DNA of 5,542 bases, from positions 6,642 through 12,183 of the forward strand of contig PBBK01000016.1 of the NCBI GenBank assembly GCA_002717685.1, read 5' to 3'. The DNA comes from Gammaproteobacteria bacterium. Its GTDB lineage: Bacteria; Pseudomonadota; Gammaproteobacteria; Woeseiales; Woeseiaceae. The translations under genes were made by a program, and so were the position numbers. Of this stretch, positions 1 to 5,542 are shown one piece after another. How positions within the stretch are numbered: the first letter of the stretch is position 1; every line of letters starts with the position of its first letter. The notes beneath the pieces are model-generated. The model did not search any database and was not told where the DNA came from. It saw only the letters and a program-made list of their open reading frames with translations.

Positions 1-117
1 TCATTTCTTAATAAAGATCAAGAGATTGAAATTATCAATACTTTTAGCGATGTACTTTTTCCTTATATTTATACAGTTTCCCATAATATTAAAACTGATA
101 AATATATTGATAAGTGA
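1..117 (+). CDS. Possible 3' end of an unrecognised gene (partial)
   Basis: Frame 1 is open from the window edge for 38 codons and ends at TGA 115-117. The peptide begins SFLNKDQEIEIINTF and ends in NIKTDKYIDK. It has a soluble, protein-like composition with mixed acidic, basic and aromatic residues. The start would lie left of the window. It would converge with the minus-strand operon. I do not recognise the family. In DNA this AT-rich a 38-codon open stretch can occur by chance, and frame 2 is also open over the same bases but reads as an unlikely run of hydrophobic residues. The call is therefore tentative and rests on peptide composition and on the convergent layout. Confidence 0.35.
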   Translation, partial: SFLNKDQEIEIINTFSDVLFPYIYTVSHNIKTDKYIDK

Positions 118-131
118 TTTCAGAAAATCAC
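114..131. repeat. Small perfect inverted repeat (7-bp arms, 4-nt loop)
   Basis: GTGATTT (114-120) and AAATCAC (125-131) are perfect reverse complements around CAGA. The hairpin straddles the stop codon of the possible plus-strand gene at 115-117. There is no T-run after it on the plus strand. On the minus strand the following bases are moderately T-rich. It could be a weak bidirectional end-of-transcript hairpin, or chance in AT-rich DNA. Confidence 0.3.
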
Positions 132-313
132 ATAATAAACATTAGAAATAAGAATGAAATGATGCAATTTAGCTCATTATTAAAGAAAAAGTTAATTAAA
201 TTAACTGAGAGACTGAAAGGTCATTTCCACACAAACATAAAATTGAAAATATATATCATAATCACCAATCTACTCAAAATACTATTGGTTTAGGCATTTT
301 CTATTTTGAAAAT
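118..313. other. Convergent AT-rich intergenic region
   Basis: About 196 bases lie between the possible plus-strand gene end and the stop of the transporter gene at 314-316. I see no convincing ORF, tRNA or promoter here. It contains several short inverted repeats: 114-131 (partly), 190-206, ACCAAT/ATTGGT at 264-269 and 284-289 with a 14-nt loop, and ATTTTC/GAAAAT at 296-301 and 308-313 with a 6-nt loop. Such structures are expected where two transcription units end face to face. Confidence 0.5.
181..206 (-). terminator. Candidate weak intrinsic terminator of the operon
   Basis: On the minus strand AGTTAAT-TTA-ATTAACT (206-190) forms a perfect 7-bp stem with a 3-nt loop. It is followed directly by a T-rich tract (TTTTCTTTA, 189-181). 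It lies about 110 nt after the transporter stop codon, in the right place and direction to end the operon transcript. The stem has only one G-C pair, so it is weak for a classical terminator. The same palindrome could instead be a protein-binding site. Confidence 0.35.
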
Positions 314-1840
314 TTATAAATTTAAATTTATACCAAAAATTCGTTGCAAAATAAGAATCAAGGACATTCCAGTAAATACTACTAAACTTAATGAGCCAAA
401 GAAAATTGCAAATTTTGAAGGAAAAAACTCCTTATCCTCTTTAGGTATTATTGTAATGCAGTAAAAAAGATTTAGAAAATAAATTATTGGTGCAACAAAG
501 TAAGCCAATGCAGAGGCAATCAATACCAAATAAACTGGACGAGGTAAACCAGCGATTATTCCTACAGACATAATCAATGAAAAAAACATGCTAATTCGGT
601 ATAAGTTGTATTCAGAATACCAATATTTGATCTTATTGTTATTGATATTTGATTTATTATCTCTAGGAAGGGCGGCGGTTTTTTTAAAAAGATTCCTACA
701 ACATGCTCCAATTACCCTTGGCCAGCCATCGAAATAATTAAATGCAGTTGAAAAAGTTGCTGCCAATGCTCCAGCAAGGAAAATTACCATAAAGTTCGTG
801 CCAACACTATCAGTAAAGATTCTAGCTATTTCACCCATGACAGCATTTCCACTAACACTGCTTGGAAATAACCATACGGCTGCAAGTAATATGAATATTG
901 CGGCTAGAATAAATGAAACAATATGTCCCAAACGAAAGTCAATCAAACCAATTCTAAACCACCTTGAACAATATTCGTTTTCATTATCACTAAGTAATTT
1001 CCTGTTGATTTGTAAATCTTGCTTAGTTGAAGAAAAAGGATCAAATTCTTTAATCAGGCTTTTTTGCTCAAGTTTTTTTCGTAAATAACTAGTACCTACA
1101 TTTTTTGCTTTTCCCCATTCCGATGCTTGTAAAGAAACATCTATTCCTGTGGGTAGAAGTCCCAAAAAGGATGCAATAATTAACCATGAACCCTCGGGTG
1201 TATCTATCTGAAAAAAATGAACAAATTCATTTGTTGGGGCAGGCTCAAAAGCATAGATGGTGATGATGCTAACAATAAGTATTCCCGCTGCAATTTTTGT
1301 AGTTAATTCAACTATTTTATAATTACCTCGCAATATAATGTAAACCGATATTAGCCCCAAGATTAATGCATATAAAGCAAGTTCATTATTATCATTGAAT
1401 AGGGGTATATCAATTTGAAGGTAAATACGAAAAAAATAAAAAATAACTGCGGCAGCAGCAATTAATCTACCTGCTTGTCCTACTGCAGATTGAATGATGG
1501 TTGTAATCAAAACATACCAGATTGGAATTTTTTTCCAGGCAGTGGCGTATGCATCTAACATACTCCGGCCTGTAGCATGAGTGAATCGAATTGCCATTTC
1601 AAAACCGTAGTACTTGAAAATATATGCTATTGGAAGGCACCAAAGCAGAGCATATCCATATCTTCCGCCTGCTACCGGTGCAGTTACAAGGTGACTAGTT
1701 CCAATTCCAGTCATCATCAACATGATTCCTGGTCCAAATTTACGTATCAGACTGATTGGAAGCATAGAGGGTAATTCTAAAGGTTCTATTATATCTTTTT
1801 GTATCTTGTGAATAGATTTCTCAGACATGTCATTTTGCAT
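314..1840 (-). CDS. Nramp-superfamily membrane transporter lacking the metal-binding motifs
   Basis: This is a 508-residue inner-membrane protein with about 11 hydrophobic helices. The N-terminus (GPG at 36-38 through GYALLW at 62-67) aligns without gaps to the first helix of Nramp/MntH transporters as I recall them. However, the metal-coordinating DPGN motif is GTSH (47-50). The helix 6 MPH motif is LPT (229-231). The Asp, Asn, Met and His ligands of Mn/Fe carriers are thus absent, so it is unlikely to carry Mn(II) or Fe(II) in the usual way. Residues 241-298, between helices 6 and 7, form a long charged loop. A STAFNYFDGWPRV stretch (364-376) follows helix 8. It is the last gene of the operon, 6 nt after the reductase stop. 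No clear ribosome binding site is seen for ATG 1840 or for the alternative ATG at 1828 (Met5), so translation may depend on reinitiation. From context, a carrier for oxalate, another small acid or an amino acid is possible; the substrate is unknown. Confidence 0.85.
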   Translation of the reverse strand: MQNDMSEKSIHKIQKDIIEPLELPSMLPISLIRKFGPGIMLMMTGIGTSHLVTAPVAGGRYGYALLWCLPIAYIFKYYGFEMAIRFTHATGRSMLDAYATAWKKIPIWYVLITTIIQSAVGQAGRLIAAAAVIFYFFRIYLQIDIPLFNDNNELALYALILGLISVYIILRGNYKIVELTTKIAAGILIVSIITIYAFEPAPTNEFVHFFQIDTPEGSWLIIASFLGLLPTGIDVSLQASEWGKAKNVGTSYLRKKLEQKSLIKEFDPFSSTKQDLQINRKLLSDNENEYCSRWFRIGLIDFRLGHIVSFILAAIFILLAAVWLFPSSVSGNAVMGEIARIFTDSVGTNFMVIFLAGALAATFSTAFNYFDGWPRVIGACCRNLFKKTAALPRDNKSNINNNKIKYWYSEYNLYRISMFFSLIMSVGIIAGLPRPVYLVLIASALAYFVAPIIYFLNLFYCITIIPKEDKEFFPSKFAIFFGSLSLVVFTGMSLILILQRIFGINLNL

Positions 1841-1846
1841 AGTATT

Positions 1847-2821
1847 TTAATAAGTCCCGTCAATGCGTGCACGTTGTTGAATTAACGCTAGAATAATATC
1901 TATAGTTGGAGTAGGTACTTTAACAAGCTCTCCGAGTTCTTTTACGGATGTTATTAAGGCATCAATTTCCATCGGTTTTTTTGATTCAAGATCTTGTAAC
2001 ATTGATGTTTTATGAGAACCTACTTCTGCGCCACCTCTTAGTCTTCGCTCTATATCAACTCGAAAATTTATTCCAAGTTTTTCTCCAATTTCTTGAGATT
2101 CTTGCATCATAAGCCTACAAATGTTGGCTGTTCCTTCTTCTCCGGCTACTAAATCTAAGGTGGCTTGTGTTAGGACGCTAATAGGGTTAAAACAAAGATT
2201 CCCCCATAATTTAACCCAAATATCATCACGAATATTAGTTCTCACGCGTGAGGTAAATCCTGATTTTTGTAGTGCATTACAAAATATATTTACACGGTCG
2301 GTTTTTTCCCCATCAGGCTCTCCAAGGATAAATCTATCTCCTTCAATGTGTTTTATTATGCCTGGCGACATAATTTCTGCTGCAGGGTATACCACGCAGC
2401 CTATAGCCCTTTTTGGGTCTATTGTTTTCCATATTTTTCCATCTGGATCAATTGCCTTTAAGTTATGATTTTCATAGGGGCCTTTTAATTTGTAGAAATA
2501 CCACCACGGTATTCCATTGATACCCGTTATAACAGTGGTATTTTTATCAAATAAATGATTAATATTTTGAATAATTTCATTCAAGGAATATGACTTAACT
2601 GATATAAAGACATAATCTTGTGGCCCAGCATCTCTAGGATCTTGTACGCATTTTGGGAATGCAGTTATTTCTTGTTCGTTAATTAGTACTTTTACACCAT
2701 TTTTTTTCATTGCATTTAAATGTGGGCCTCTTGCAATGAGGGTCACATCTTCACCAGAAAGTGACATTTGTGCTCCAAGCCAGGCTCCTATTGCTCCTGC
2801 TCCATAAATACATATTCTCAT
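1847..2821 (-). CDS. PanE/ApbA-fold reductase, probable oxalyl-CoA reductase (PanE2-like)
   Basis: This 324-residue soluble NAD(P)-dependent enzyme has the ketopantoate reductase fold. The Rossmann loop GAGAIG is at 7-12, followed by K76 (SVKSY) and NGIPWW at 102-107. The C-terminal helical domain has the catalytic-type lysine K204 in KLWGN, then NPIS at 212-215. SMLQDLES (273-280) leads into MEID (284-287), which carries the conserved Glu285. It is longer than E. coli PanE (about 303 residues) and has extra sequence around 108-138. A generic annotation would be 2-dehydropantoate 2-reductase. Next to an oxalyl-CoA synthetase and a glyoxylate-type aminotransferase, I favour reduction of oxalyl-CoA to glyoxylate, the activity reported for PanE2 of Methylobacterium extorquens. 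No other pantothenate gene is in view. The start ATG overlaps the upstream stop (ATGA, 4 nt), which suggests translational coupling; a weak TTAGG lies 9 nt upstream. The fold is certain, the substrate inferred. Confidence 0.9.
   Translation of the reverse strand: MRICIYGAGAIGAWLGAQMSLSGEDVTLIARGPHLNAMKKNGVKVLINEQEITAFPKCVQDPRDAGPQDYVFISVKSYSLNEIIQNINHLFDKNTTVITGINGIPWWYFYKLKGPYENHNLKAIDPDGKIWKTIDPKRAIGCVVYPAAEIMSPGIIKHIEGDRFILGEPDGEKTDRVNIFCNALQKSGFTSRVRTNIRDDIWVKLWGNLCFNPISVLTQATLDLVAGEEGTANICRLMMQESQEIGEKLGINFRVDIERRLRGGAEVGSHKTSMLQDLESKKPMEIDALITSVKELGELVKVPTPTIDIILALIQQRARIDGTY
2818..2821 (-). promoter_or_regulatory. ATGA stop-start overlap coupling synthetase and reductase
   Basis: The TGA of the synthetase (2820-2818) and the ATG of the reductase (2821-2819) share bases in ATGA. 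A weak Shine-Dalgarno-like TTAGG at 2835-2831 lies 9 nt upstream. The arrangement suggests that ribosomes finishing the synthetase re-initiate on the reductase, which would keep the two enzymes in fixed proportion. Confidence 0.7.
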
Positions 2822-4398
2822 GTATCAATACCTAACGTTTTTGCAAAACCTATTCTTTTTAGTTTACCGGTGGCACCTTTAGGAATTTCATCTAAAAAAA
2901 TAATTTTCTTTGGAATTTTAAATTTTGCTAATCGAGTAGCAACATATGATCTTATTTCTTTCTCATGCATTTTTTTTCCTTCATGTAAAACGATAGCAAC
3001 AGCAACGTCTTCTCCAAGAATTTTATGCGGAATAGAGAATGTCAACGCTTGTTGAACTGAAGTATGATTCATTATTACATCATCAATTTCTCTTGGAGAA
3101 ATTTTTTCACCACCTCTATTTATTATTTCTTTTAATCTTCCGGTTATTATAAGAAAATTATCTTCATCAAAAAAACCTTGATCTCCAGTTCTAAACCACC
3201 CATCAACAAAGCAATCTAAATTTGCTTTTGGATTATTTTCATATCCTGCAGTAACGTTTAATCCTTTTATGACAATTTCACCTTTTTTACCCTGTTTAAG
3301 CAATTTGGGTTTAGTTTCATCCATTATTGAAACTTCAGGTCCTGCAGGACAGCCAACTGTTCCTGCCTTTCGTTTTTTAGGAGGAAGTTGATTACTGGTC
3401 ATCTGATGAGATGCTTCAGTCATGGCATATGCTTCTATAACAGGTATCTTAAAAATGTTTTCTAATTCTTTAAATACTGATGGAGATAAAGACGATGAAG
3501 ACGAACGAATAAATTTTAATTGCGAGTTATTTATAATGTCTTTATTTCTTGCAGCTCTGCTTAGAATAGATTGATGCATTGAGGGCACGGCACTATACCA
3601 TGTTGGTTTAGTTTGGCTAAGCCATTTAAAGAACTTTAATGCATTAAAACCAGTGGTTGTAAATACGCTGCCGCCACTAGCAAAAGATGAAAGTAGTGGA
3701 GCTATTAACCCATGAATATGGAAAAGAGGCATTATATTCAGGCAAACATCATTATGTTTAAGTTGTAATGTTTTCATAATATTATAAGCTGAAGCATATA
3801 AGTTAGCGTGAGATAGAGGTACGATTTTTGGTTTTGAAGTTGTTCCAGATGTGTGTAAAACAAGCGCTGTATTATTTTCCTTGGCCATTCCTAATTTCTT
3901 ATTTTTATTCTTTAATAATATATTATCAGACGGTATTAAATTGAATGACCCATTCATCAGCGATGAATTAATCGATAAATATAGGATGACAATATTTTTT
4001 TGAATTGCAGCTTGAATAGCCAGTGATTCGGAGTTTTCCATGACTACTAAGGCTTTGGCATTTAGATCAGATAAATAAAAATCAAATTCATCAAGCGTAT
4101 ACGAAGGATTTAATGGAGCAGCCGTGGCCGCGCAAGCAATTGATAAAAATGCAGCTGCCATTTCAGGTCCGTTTGGTAAAACAATTGCAATTTTATCATT
4201 ATGACCGATTCCAAGATTATTTAAATCAATTATTGTTTGTTTGATATTTTTTCTTAGATCGCCGTATGAAAGTGACGCTATTTTATTTTTTGTGAGTAAC
4301 GAAGATTTTTTATTAGTAATAGGTTGAAAACTCAGGATAGCATCATTATTTTTTGGATGGCTTCTTAGTAATTCATAAATTGTTAATTGTTTTTTCAA
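2818..4398 (-). CDS. AMP-forming acyl-CoA synthetase, probable oxalyl-CoA synthetase (oxalate--CoA ligase)
   Basis: This 526-residue cytoplasmic member of the acyl-adenylate (ANL) superfamily is full length. The P-loop HTSGTTSKPK is at 182-191, EAYAMTEAS at 322-330, TGD at 404-406, the hinge GRLKEIINRGGEKISP at 420-435, and the C-terminal catalytic lysine K512 sits in GATGKLKR. Stretches such as AAPLNPSYTLDEFDFYLSD (93-111), PLFHIHGL (224-231) and TWYSAVPSMHQ (266-276) closely resemble plant AAE3 and yeast Pcs60, which make oxalyl-CoA from oxalate, CoA and ATP. The two residues I recall as oxalate contacts in Arabidopsis AAE3 (Ser289, His319) correspond to S301 and H331, with the same 30-residue spacing. 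The start is TTG 4398, since the next in-frame Met is residue 80 and would delete conserved sequence; GAAAGG lies 7 nt upstream. It follows the aminotransferase by 14 nt and overlaps the reductase by 4. A related short-chain acid remains possible as substrate. Confidence 0.92.
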   Translation of the reverse strand: MKKQLTIYELLRSHPKNNDAILSFQPITNKKSSLLTKNKIASLSYGDLRKNIKQTIIDLNNLGIGHNDKIAIVLPNGPEMAAAFLSIACAATAAPLNPSYTLDEFDFYLSDLNAKALVVMENSESLAIQAAIQKNIVILYLSINSSLMNGSFNLIPSDNILLKNKNKKLGMAKENNTALVLHTSGTTSKPKIVPLSHANLYASAYNIMKTLQLKHNDVCLNIMPLFHIHGLIAPLLSSFASGGSVFTTTGFNALKFFKWLSQTKPTWYSAVPSMHQSILSRAARNKDIINNSQLKFIRSSSSSLSPSVFKELENIFKIPVIEAYAMTEASHQMTSNQLPPKKRKAGTVGCPAGPEVSIMDETKPKLLKQGKKGEIVIKGLNVTAGYENNPKANLDCFVDGWFRTGDQGFFDEDNFLIITGRLKEIINRGGEKISPREIDDVIMNHTSVQQALTFSIPHKILGEDVAVAIVLHEGKKMHEKEIRSYVATRLAKFKIPKKIIFLDEIPKGATGKLKRIGFAKTLGIDT

Positions 4399-4401
4399 CG
4401 T

Positions 4402-4413
4402 TTAACCTTTCAT
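4402..4413 (-). other. Three-codon mini-ORF (ATG AAA GGT TAA) in the gene junction
   Basis: An ATG at 4413-4411 overlaps the aminotransferase stop in the usual ATGA fashion, but runs into TAA after two further codons. The ribosome binding site of the TTG start lies inside it. It may be chance, or a remnant of an older coupled start that is now replaced by TTG 4398. Confidence 0.3.
4406..4411 (-). promoter_or_regulatory. Ribosome binding site deciding the TTG start of the synthetase
   Basis: On the minus strand GAAAGG (4411-4406) is followed by 7 nt and then TTG at 4398-4396. Sequence and spacing match a Shine-Dalgarno site. No ATG or GTG in frame could serve as start without losing conserved N-terminal residues, so this site decides the start codon. 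Confidence 0.7.
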
Positions 4414-5540
4414 CAAAGAATTTTATTTAATACATCACTCAAATATGTCACGGTTCGTTTAATGTTATTTATTTTCTCTAAACCAAAAAGACCAATTCGG
4501 AAAGTATTGAAATTATCTCCCTCATCACACATAAGCGGCACTCCAGCAGCAATCTGTAATCCGTGTTCTGCAAATTTTTGACCTGATTTAATATCAGGAT
4601 TATCAGTATATGAGACAATTACAGTGGGAGCTTGAAATCCTGCTCCTGCGACACTTTTTATACCTAATTCAGAAAATAATGAGCGGACTTCTTTACCAAG
4701 TCTAATTTGATTGCTTTTCATTGCTTCAAGACCATAATTTCTTGTTTCATTTATGACATTACAACATTGAATAAGAGAATTAGTTGGCATCGTTGCATGA
4801 TATGCATGTCCACCATTTTCATATATTTCCATGATTTCTAACCATTTCTCTAAACTGCATGAGAAGCTTGATGATTTGCTTGAGGAAATGATTTTTTTTG
4901 CTTTGTTATTAAGCATTATAAATGCGGCGCATGGTGGGCCGCTCCATCCTTTTTGAGGTGCAGTTATTAAAATATCAATCCCAATATTTTTCATATTTAG
5001 CCACATTGCTCCTGATGCAATGCAATCTATGATAAATAGCCCCCCAACGGCATGCGTAGCATTGGTTATTTGTATTAAATAATCGTCAGGTAATATCATT
5101 CCAGATGCAGTTTCTACATGAGGCGCGAATACTAAATCTGGTTTTTCTTTCGCAATAGTATTAATAACTTCTTCTATGTTTGCAGGGTAAAATGGTTCTT
5201 GGTTTTCTTTATTTTTTCTAAACGCTTTTAAAACTTTCGTGCTTTTTGGAATTTTCCCAGCTTCGAAAATTTGCGTCCAGCGATAACTGAACCAGCCATT
5301 TCTTATAACTAAACATTTTTTATTTGTTGCAAATTGTCGGGCAACTGCTTCCATGCCATAAGTGCCTCCGCCTGGAACAATAACAACAGAATCTGCGTTA
5401 TAGACTTGTTTCAAATTTCTAGATATATCAGTCATTACTGTTTGGAATTGTAATGACATATGATTAACCGAGCGGTCAGTATAAACTACAGAATATTCTA
5501 ATAAACCATCAGGATCTACGTTTTCGAGCAAACTTGGCAT
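4413..5540 (-). CDS. Class V PLP-dependent aminotransferase, probable glyoxylate aminotransferase
   Basis: This 375-residue enzyme has the fold-type I class V aminotransferase pattern. The cofactor phosphate loop GGGTYGMEA is at 57-65 and HVETASG at 141-147. The PLP-ring aspartate is D172 in IIDCIAS, and the Schiff-base lysine is K197 in TAPQKGWSGPP. A carboxylate-binding type arginine, R348, is in FRIG near the C-terminus. It resembles proteins usually named alanine--glyoxylate or serine--glyoxylate aminotransferase, which turn glyoxylate into glycine. The N-terminus (DPDGLLEYSVVYTDRSVNHMS, part of 9-29) differs from the usual GPGP start of these enzymes, so it belongs to a distinct subgroup. 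As the first visible gene of the operon it would use the glyoxylate made by the reductase downstream. The length suits the family (about 375-400), and ATG 5540 is a plausible start, though its ribosome binding site is cut off. The donor (serine, alanine or other) cannot be read from sequence; a phosphonate-type aminotransferase is an alternative. Confidence 0.9.
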   Translation of the reverse strand: MPSLLENVDPDGLLEYSVVYTDRSVNHMSLQFQTVMTDISRNLKQVYNADSVVIVPGGGTYGMEAVARQFATNKKCLVIRNGWFSYRWTQIFEAGKIPKSTKVLKAFRKNKENQEPFYPANIEEVINTIAKEKPDLVFAPHVETASGMILPDDYLIQITNATHAVGGLFIIDCIASGAMWLNMKNIGIDILITAPQKGWSGPPCAAFIMLNNKAKKIISSSKSSSFSCSLEKWLEIMEIYENGGHAYHATMPTNSLIQCCNVINETRNYGLEAMKSNQIRLGKEVRSLFSELGIKSVAGAGFQAPTVIVSYTDNPDIKSGQKFAEHGLQIAAGVPLMCDEGDNFNTFRIGLFGLEKINNIKRTVTYLSDVLNKIL

Positions 5541-5542
5541 GA

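Follow-up and report, generated by a model that had tools for sequence, protein, structure and literature searches.

Canonical Nramp/MntH proteins (Slc11), among them DraNramp (6d91) and BfraNramp (10ky), are recognized by a DPGN motif in helix 1, an MPH motif in helix 6 and a Glu in helix 3. According to PMC8806188, the helix-1 Asp is conserved throughout the SLC11 proteins. In BfraNramp, E116 directly contacts Mn2+, and its Ala mutant is nearly devoid of transport (PMC12873925). The non-canonical NRMTs, with the pocket DxxG-TxxA/T (PMC8806188), carry Mg2+ (PMC4072509, PMC8806188), and an M-box riboswitch lies upstream in the cases described in PMC4072509. Nramp-related proteins without DPGN and MPH have been published as a paraphyletic set and as an outgroup of the family (PMC12873925, PMC9606685, PMC4072509). 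In several of these clades the helix-3 site is occupied by Glu, Asp or Asn (PMC12873925), and the discussion in PMC4072509 sees in the outgroup a bridge to transporters whose substrates are not metals; the accessible text of PMC12873925 and PMC9606685 states no oxalate link for these proteins.

PxpT of Corynebacterium glutamicum, a member of the NRAMP family, is required for growth on 5-oxoproline, and its authors do not exclude metal transport (PMC13274462). PxpT is a precedent for an NRAMP-family protein on which the use of an organic acid depends. YcsG (MntG) of Bacillus subtilis is a 50% identical homologue of PxpT in the same kind of operon, that of 5-oxoprolinase; its overproduction raised cellular Mn2+, and the conclusion of its authors was that it imports Mn2+ (PMC10448178). 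As a member of an organic-acid operon, YcsG illustrates that operon context can mislead on cargo.

A 2026 survey of oxalate metabolism lists 19 enzymes, with OxlT as the sole transporter (PMC12927642), and a 2023 survey notes OxlT from no more than two strains of aerobic bacteria (PMC10192776). Oxalate transport by OxlT needs two basic residues, R272 and K355 (PMC10070484). In Methylobacterium, PanE2 has been described as an oxalyl-CoA reductase forming glyoxylate from oxalyl-CoA (PMC8411744, PMC12686821). Our literature search found no report of an oxalate-carrying Nramp, of an oxalate-linked Nramp clade or of a charge reversal in helix 3. Loss of DPGN and MPH is already known; as far as this search shows, the new elements in what follows are the oxalate-linked clade and the helix-3 reversal.

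The window, that is, the whole stretch of 5,542 nucleotides that was analysed, carries an operon with the following genes.

314..1840, minus strand: Nramp-fold (PF01566) membrane protein of 508 amino acids with an ATG start, the last gene of the operon and the proposed oxalate transporter
1847..2821, minus strand: PanE2-type reductase (2-dehydropantoate 2-reductase family), putative oxalyl-CoA reductase (NF005089 460.7 bits, cut-off 223; best PDB match 3ghy, 244 bits)
2818..4398, minus strand: AMP-forming ligase, putative oxalyl-CoA synthetase (oxalate-CoA ligase) from its PDB matches
4413..5540, minus strand: class-V aminotransferase of the serine/alanine-glyoxylate type (PF00266; best PDB match 3ke3), presumed to convert glyoxylate to glycine

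Transcription would run from the aminotransferase, the first gene within the window, through ligase and reductase to the Nramp-like gene, with tight intergenic spacings of 14, -4 and 6 bp. The top four PDB matches of the ligase are all oxalate/oxalyl-CoA ligases (6qjz 395, 8aff 389, 5ie0 380 and 8atd 285 bits); the next other kind of enzyme scores 181 bits, or 104–214 bits below them. The aminotransferase matches 3ke3, a putative serine-pyruvate aminotransferase, with 467 bits. If the enzyme activities are taken from their families, the operon would lead from oxalate through oxalyl-CoA and glyoxylate to glycine. By family model and published description, the step from oxalyl-CoA to glyoxylate by a PanE2 reductase may be common to this operon and the Methylobacterium route; unlike that route, the window operon adds a putative oxalate-CoA ligase and an Nramp-fold carrier. 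One homologue of the reductase (51% identity) lies ~1.2 kb from oxlT in Azospirillum ramasamyi and another ~4 kb from frc in Phyllobacterium; for a Skermanella homologue no annotated oxalate gene was found within 7 kb.

Positions 1-117 of the plus strand hold 38 open codons closed by a TGA, apparently the tail of a convergent gene. The G+C content of the window (1-5542) is 33.6%, compared to 48-57% in eleven relatives measured, and on the transporter tree its row has a long branch and an odd letter make-up. The low G+C content and long branch suggest an AT-rich lineage.

The Nramp-fold protein is, in our judgment, probably the oxalate importer of an oxalate-assimilation operon. We infer its substrate, direction and coupling ion from what was observed here: sequence, fold, conservation, gene linkage, co-occurrence and the lack of OxlT over cut-off. 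The carrier would bring oxalate into the cell by alternating access, as in other Nramps. The oxalyl-CoA synthetase would then activate the imported oxalate, the PanE2-type reductase would form glyoxylate, and the aminotransferase would yield glycine. Oxalate import is favoured because of the tight oxalate-type operon, the linkage, the two activation routes, the co-occurrence, the lack of OxlT over cut-off, Arg125 and the clean control regions. Confidence in it is lowered by YcsG. PxpT and YcsG (TCDB 2.A.55), compared here by description only, are likewise NRAMP-family proteins in an organic-acid operon, but theirs is a 5-oxoprolinase operon with another substrate, whereas the window operon encodes oxalate-type enzymes. 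The structure 9a52 was not among the PDB matches of two other Nramp-related query proteins.

That the Nramp scaffold is kept, as the earlier note held, is borne out by a score of 62.1 bits against Pfam PF01566 (Nramp; cut-off 29.8) and by the protein's Nramp-type fold. Identity to canonical Nramp/MntH is 14%, and between helices 6 and 7 (Pfam positions) the window protein is ~35-40 residues longer. Its sole NCBIfam match at E <= 0.001 is NF037982, an equivalog named 'Nramp family divalent metal transporter' (score 69, cut-off 50), while the OxlT model TIGR04259 (MFS) does not match. NF037982 also matches 36/36 members of clade set A1, and the names shown among the 120 listed of 1220 database matches are Nramp or Mn2+/Fe2+ transporter. 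These labels, this equivalog, Mg2+ transport by the non-canonical NRMTs (PMC4072509, PMC8806188) and the report of YcsG as a Mn2+ importer beside 5-oxoprolinase genes (PMC10448178) speak for a protein that has remained a transporter of divalent metals (Mn, Fe or Mg) and is found in oxalate operons for another reason, for instance to cover a metal need during growth on oxalate. We regard this as unlikely given the residues described next, the repeated linkage to two different oxalate routes and the missing OxlT over cut-off in 29 gene-holding genomes. A search of the 5.5-kb window, beyond which the region before the operon lies, gave no Rfam match up to E 1 and hence no M-box within the window, which may also speak against it.

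Conservation was followed in 201 sequences: the window protein, those of 80 related loci and 120 database proteins, the listed ones of 1220 matches. Three sites lie opposite the metal-site motifs of canonical transporters.

1691..1702, minus strand: codons of G47-T48-S49-H50 in helix 1, opposite the DPGN metal motif in the MntH alignments, invariant in 201/201
1139..1156, minus strand: codons of L229-P230-T231-G232-I233-D234, the helix-6 break of the AF2 model, replacing the MPH region, all but I233 invariant in 201/201
1466..1468, minus strand: codon of Arg125 in helix 3, aligned by profile with BfraNramp Glu116 (the Mn2+ contact), Arg in 201/201

From GPG through GY.LLW, helix 1 can be aligned with DraNramp/MntH and BfraNramp without a gap, and GTSH at 47-50 takes the place of DPGN; the earlier note had made both points for MntH. 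In the AF2 model of the window protein, helix 6 is broken at 229-234, where the sequence is LPTGID, or LPTGMD in 18 of the 201 (window, 80 loci and the 120 listed of 1220 matches). The earlier note read MPH as LPT (229-231). MPH is indeed absent, but the profile alignment to BfraNramp puts it opposite TGI (231-233), a different register. The exact residues facing MPH are uncertain, and neither register shows a Met-Pro-His set. Gly47, Thr48, Ser49, His50, Gln117, Gln122, Arg125, Leu229, Pro230, Thr231, Gly232 and Asp234 are invariant in 201/201. Since GTSH and L229-P230-T231-G232 are identical throughout this set, with its 120 listed of 1220 matches, they are more than chance. All 201 sequences thus lack the canonical Slc11/MntH features DPGN, MPH and helix-3 Glu, with GTSH, LPTGI/MD and Arg125 instead. 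The NRMT pocket DxxG-TxxA/T is also absent: NRMTs such as EleNRMT (7qia) keep the helix-1 Asp, where the window protein has Gly47.

The BfraNramp residue opposite Arg125 is the helix-3 Glu, index 115 of chain 10ky; published numbering is one higher (Asp38 = index 37). E. coli MntH likewise has Glu in this column. With Glu in these two proteins and Arg in the clade, acidic metal-site positions have been lost and one has been turned basic. Among distant rows, Arg occurs solely in two Azospirillaceae proteins, the others having Val, Met, Leu, Ile, Gln or Asn. Diverse replacements of DPGN and MPH are shared with the 'Nramp-related' or outgroup PF01566 proteins; helix 3 differs, the clade having Arg. 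Arg125 would face the substrate. In the proposed change from a cation to an anion pocket, the helix-1 Asp and Asn would have become Gly47 and His50, the helix-6 Met and His would have been lost, and the helix-3 Glu would have given way to Arg125. The oxalate dianion is predicted to be held by Arg125 and His50, with Thr48, Ser49, Thr231 and Gln122.

The claim that all the usual metal ligands are lost stands for DPGN and MPH, but it needs qualifying at His50, which replaces the Asn, as histidine is able to bind metal. Together with the invariant Asp234, His50 could serve a cation, which counts against the oxalate reading. An Nramp ancestry and the invariance of His50 and Asp234 in the 201 sequences would suit a carrier of a metal-oxalate complex (e.g., Mg-, Ca- or Fe(II)-oxalate) that retained some metal binding through these two residues and the backbone. 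CitMHS carriers move citrate as a metal complex. Such a cargo fits the oxalate gene context equally well, but it is improbable, as the helix-1 Asp that is universal in SLC11 (PMC8806188) is lost and the helix-3 Glu is replaced by Arg.

A scan of genome contigs confirmed 183 relatives, of which 80 loci (L005-L084) were kept; as titled, they span five phyla, Pseudomonadota, Acidobacteriota, Gemmatimonadota, Planctomycetota and Verrucomicrobiota. With identity thresholds of our own for neighbours (PanE 42, ACS 45, Frc 50, Oxc 55 and AT, the aminotransferase, 40%), these 80 loci have PanE in 37, ACS in 28, Frc in 21, Oxc in 7 and a window-type aminotransferase in 1. By class, 28 have PanE and ACS, 16 Frc, 5 Frc and PanE, 4 PanE only and 27 none. 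At least one of PanE, ACS, Frc and Oxc is thus present in 53/80, and in 20 of the 29 loci flanked by 9 kb or more in both directions; oxalate-type genes are absent nearby in 27/80, including 9 of the 29 with long flanks. The nearest oxalate-type gene is within 150 bp in 29/80 loci, and gene order and orientation differ among loci. In L032 the Nramp-like gene, Oxc (1004.5 bits, cut-off 739.4) and Frc stand in a row, and the Frc of L064 scores 690.8 bits (cut-off 504.2). Neither Frc nor PanE lies near the clade members at L017 and L019 (the latter from Candidatus Rariloculus versatilis). In four further stretches (L116, L117, L120 and L108, of genomes G001, G003, G013 and G699), Frc lies ~2.3 kb or less from PanE, with no ACS match and no transporter in the stretch.

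On a quick transporter tree, parsimony requires at least 9 changes between ACS and Frc contexts, 6 of them forced by strongly supported branches; two unrelated enzymes that activate oxalate have thus come to stand beside the same carrier more than once. As the one compound that both neighbour sets use, oxalate is the favoured cargo. The earlier list of oxalate, glyoxylate, glycine or serine is supported to this extent, but narrowed to oxalate. Another acid of the pathway, i.e., glyoxylate, glycolate, formate or an amino acid, could be argued from the aminotransferase in the window, from the glyoxylate made by PanE2 and from the formyl-CoA and formate made by Frc/Oxc. We consider this very unlikely: glyoxylate arises in the PanE2 route alone and formate in that of Frc/Oxc alone, whereas the gene accompanies both, and the window-type aminotransferase is found in one locus of 80 (L012). 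By that count the aminotransferase was rejected as a constant partner, as was oxalyl-CoA decarboxylase (Oxc), present at 7/80 loci and over cut-off in 0/199 Acidobacteriota genomes; Oxc matches of 520-535 bits, under cut-off, occur in 8 of these 199, none of them gene holders.

Co-occurrence of the clade with oxalyl-CoA and PanE genes, proposed in the earlier note as a check, was found both at the loci of five phyla and in two phylum draws. Genomes were drawn from Acidobacteriota (199, phylum of the L075 genome), Gemmatimonadota (200, L066) and Pseudomonadota (398, L012), the phyla being named by record title, and absences in these draws may be assembly gaps. In Acidobacteriota the Nramp-like gene is present in 7/199, two further weak matches being distant relatives; Frc is over cut-off in 6 genomes and PanE in 13. 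Frc occurs in 5/7 gene holders versus 1/192 others (p 5e-8, shared ancestry ignored), PanE in 4/7 versus 9/192, and one or the other in 7/7 versus 10/192. Among the 200 Gemmatimonadota, the gene is found in 36 (four weaker matches left out), PanE in 34 and both in 28, giving PanE in 28/36 holders versus 6/164 others (p 2.5e-21, genomes treated as independent). In 19 of the 28 the two are on the same contig, 18 bp to 7 kb apart. Eight holders are without PanE over cut-off in this draw, where the enzyme search covered PanE alone. In 26 gene-holding genomes hand-picked from the 80 loci, Frc is present in 16, PanE in 16 and at least one over cut-off in 25; in the remaining one (G005, genome of L017) neither was found genome-wide.

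The oxalate:formate antiporter OxlT (OFA) has the same proposed substrate; its fold differs, being MFS rather than Nramp. OxlT (TIGR04259) is over cut-off in 0/29 gene-holding genomes (G001-G026, G067, G122 and G195); Frc exceeds its cut-off in 17 of these. Weaker OxlT-like matches occur in 12 of the 29 (best 235.8 bits, cut-off 335), and such matches are also seen in two control genomes, E. coli and B. subtilis. The sole Acidobacteriota genome with Frc and without the gene (G190) has OxlT (441 bits) ~2 kb from Frc, and in the Pseudomonadota draw of 398, 27 of the 31 genomes with Frc have OxlT. Overall, OxlT is found in 28/32 Frc genomes versus 0/17 gene-holding Frc genomes (Fisher p 9e-10; the groups differ by phylum and ancestry is ignored). 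This contrast is mostly between phyla, the 31 Pseudomonadota genomes having been covered for the Nramp-like gene at Frc neighbourhoods only; within Pseudomonadota it is 27/31 versus 0/3 (G006, G010 and G011, assigned by the titles of their loci L024, L023 and L025). The Nramp-like gene is absent from the nine Frc neighbourhoods examined among the 31, including those of the four genomes without OxlT. As these 4/31 have neither OxlT nor an Nramp-like gene beside Frc, other carriers exist.

A phylogeny of PF01566 proteins had been suggested earlier as a further check, and in a tree of 49 rows the ligand-less clade forms one side of a branch with SH-aLRT 100. Its nearest rows are proteins of Skermanella and Azospirillum with GASH and a helix-3 Arg, a placement that is unsure given support of 83 and long branches. 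These proteins (L001:7914-9320 and L002:7911-9311) are ~30% identical and have GASH, GIAGR and the helix-3 Arg; no annotated oxalate gene was found within 8 kb of them, and queries with Frc, Oxc, PanE, ACS and AT gave no match in L001-L004. Both Skermanella and Azospirillum have a PanE2-like gene elsewhere in the species, that of A. ramasamyi being the copy ~1.2 kb from oxlT.

G-x-S-H is present in 11/11 'far' relatives of the 49-row tree, L097 having GTSH itself, and regions around seven far relatives (L126-L132) have no Frc, PanE or ACS match. GTSH alone was rejected as a marker of oxalate transport, far relatives having G-x-S-H and no orthologue-level oxalate gene in the stretches examined. 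At E 1e-25, no homologue of Frc, PanE or ACS turned up in twelve control regions around distant Nramp-related genes (two of only 3-5 kb). One region contains an Oxc-like ThDP enzyme of 26% identity, which NCBIfam assigns to PRK08266, likewise found in a second locus. In L127 (9083-10315) and L128 (1446-2750), of genomes G008 and G009, a GVSH Nramp-related protein directly precedes the PRK08266 ThDP enzyme, and in L127 an aldehyde dehydrogenase precedes the GVSH protein. This protein is perhaps another acid carrier. Three clade genomes (G001, G013 and G015) also have PF01566 proteins of 262-288 bits (L085, L086 and L087) with GPGT for DPGN and a helix-3 Asn; by sequence these appear to be another non-canonical group, E. 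coli MntH being the only canonical row in the 49-row tree. With GPGT and Asn, they do not establish a canonical second metal carrier in these genomes.

More tentatively, and with somewhat less than even confidence, we suggest that one branch of Nramp has exchanged metal cations for organic anions. In the oxalate clade and in its probable sister group of Skermanella and Azospirillum, the metal site would have had its charge reversed, and carriers of other small acids would be found in the wider G-x-S-H group. Taken with PxpT, this reading would turn Nramp into a scaffold that serves acids besides metals, and oxalate users would gain a second carrier, unrelated to OxlT and substituting for it.

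If the clade carries oxalate, its automatic annotation as a metal transporter mislabels it. A few substitutions would then have taken the Nramp scaffold from cation to anion, and among them the helix-3 change from Glu to Arg offers a sharp test. Such a clade would also fill a gap in the 2026 survey, where OxlT is the only transporter.
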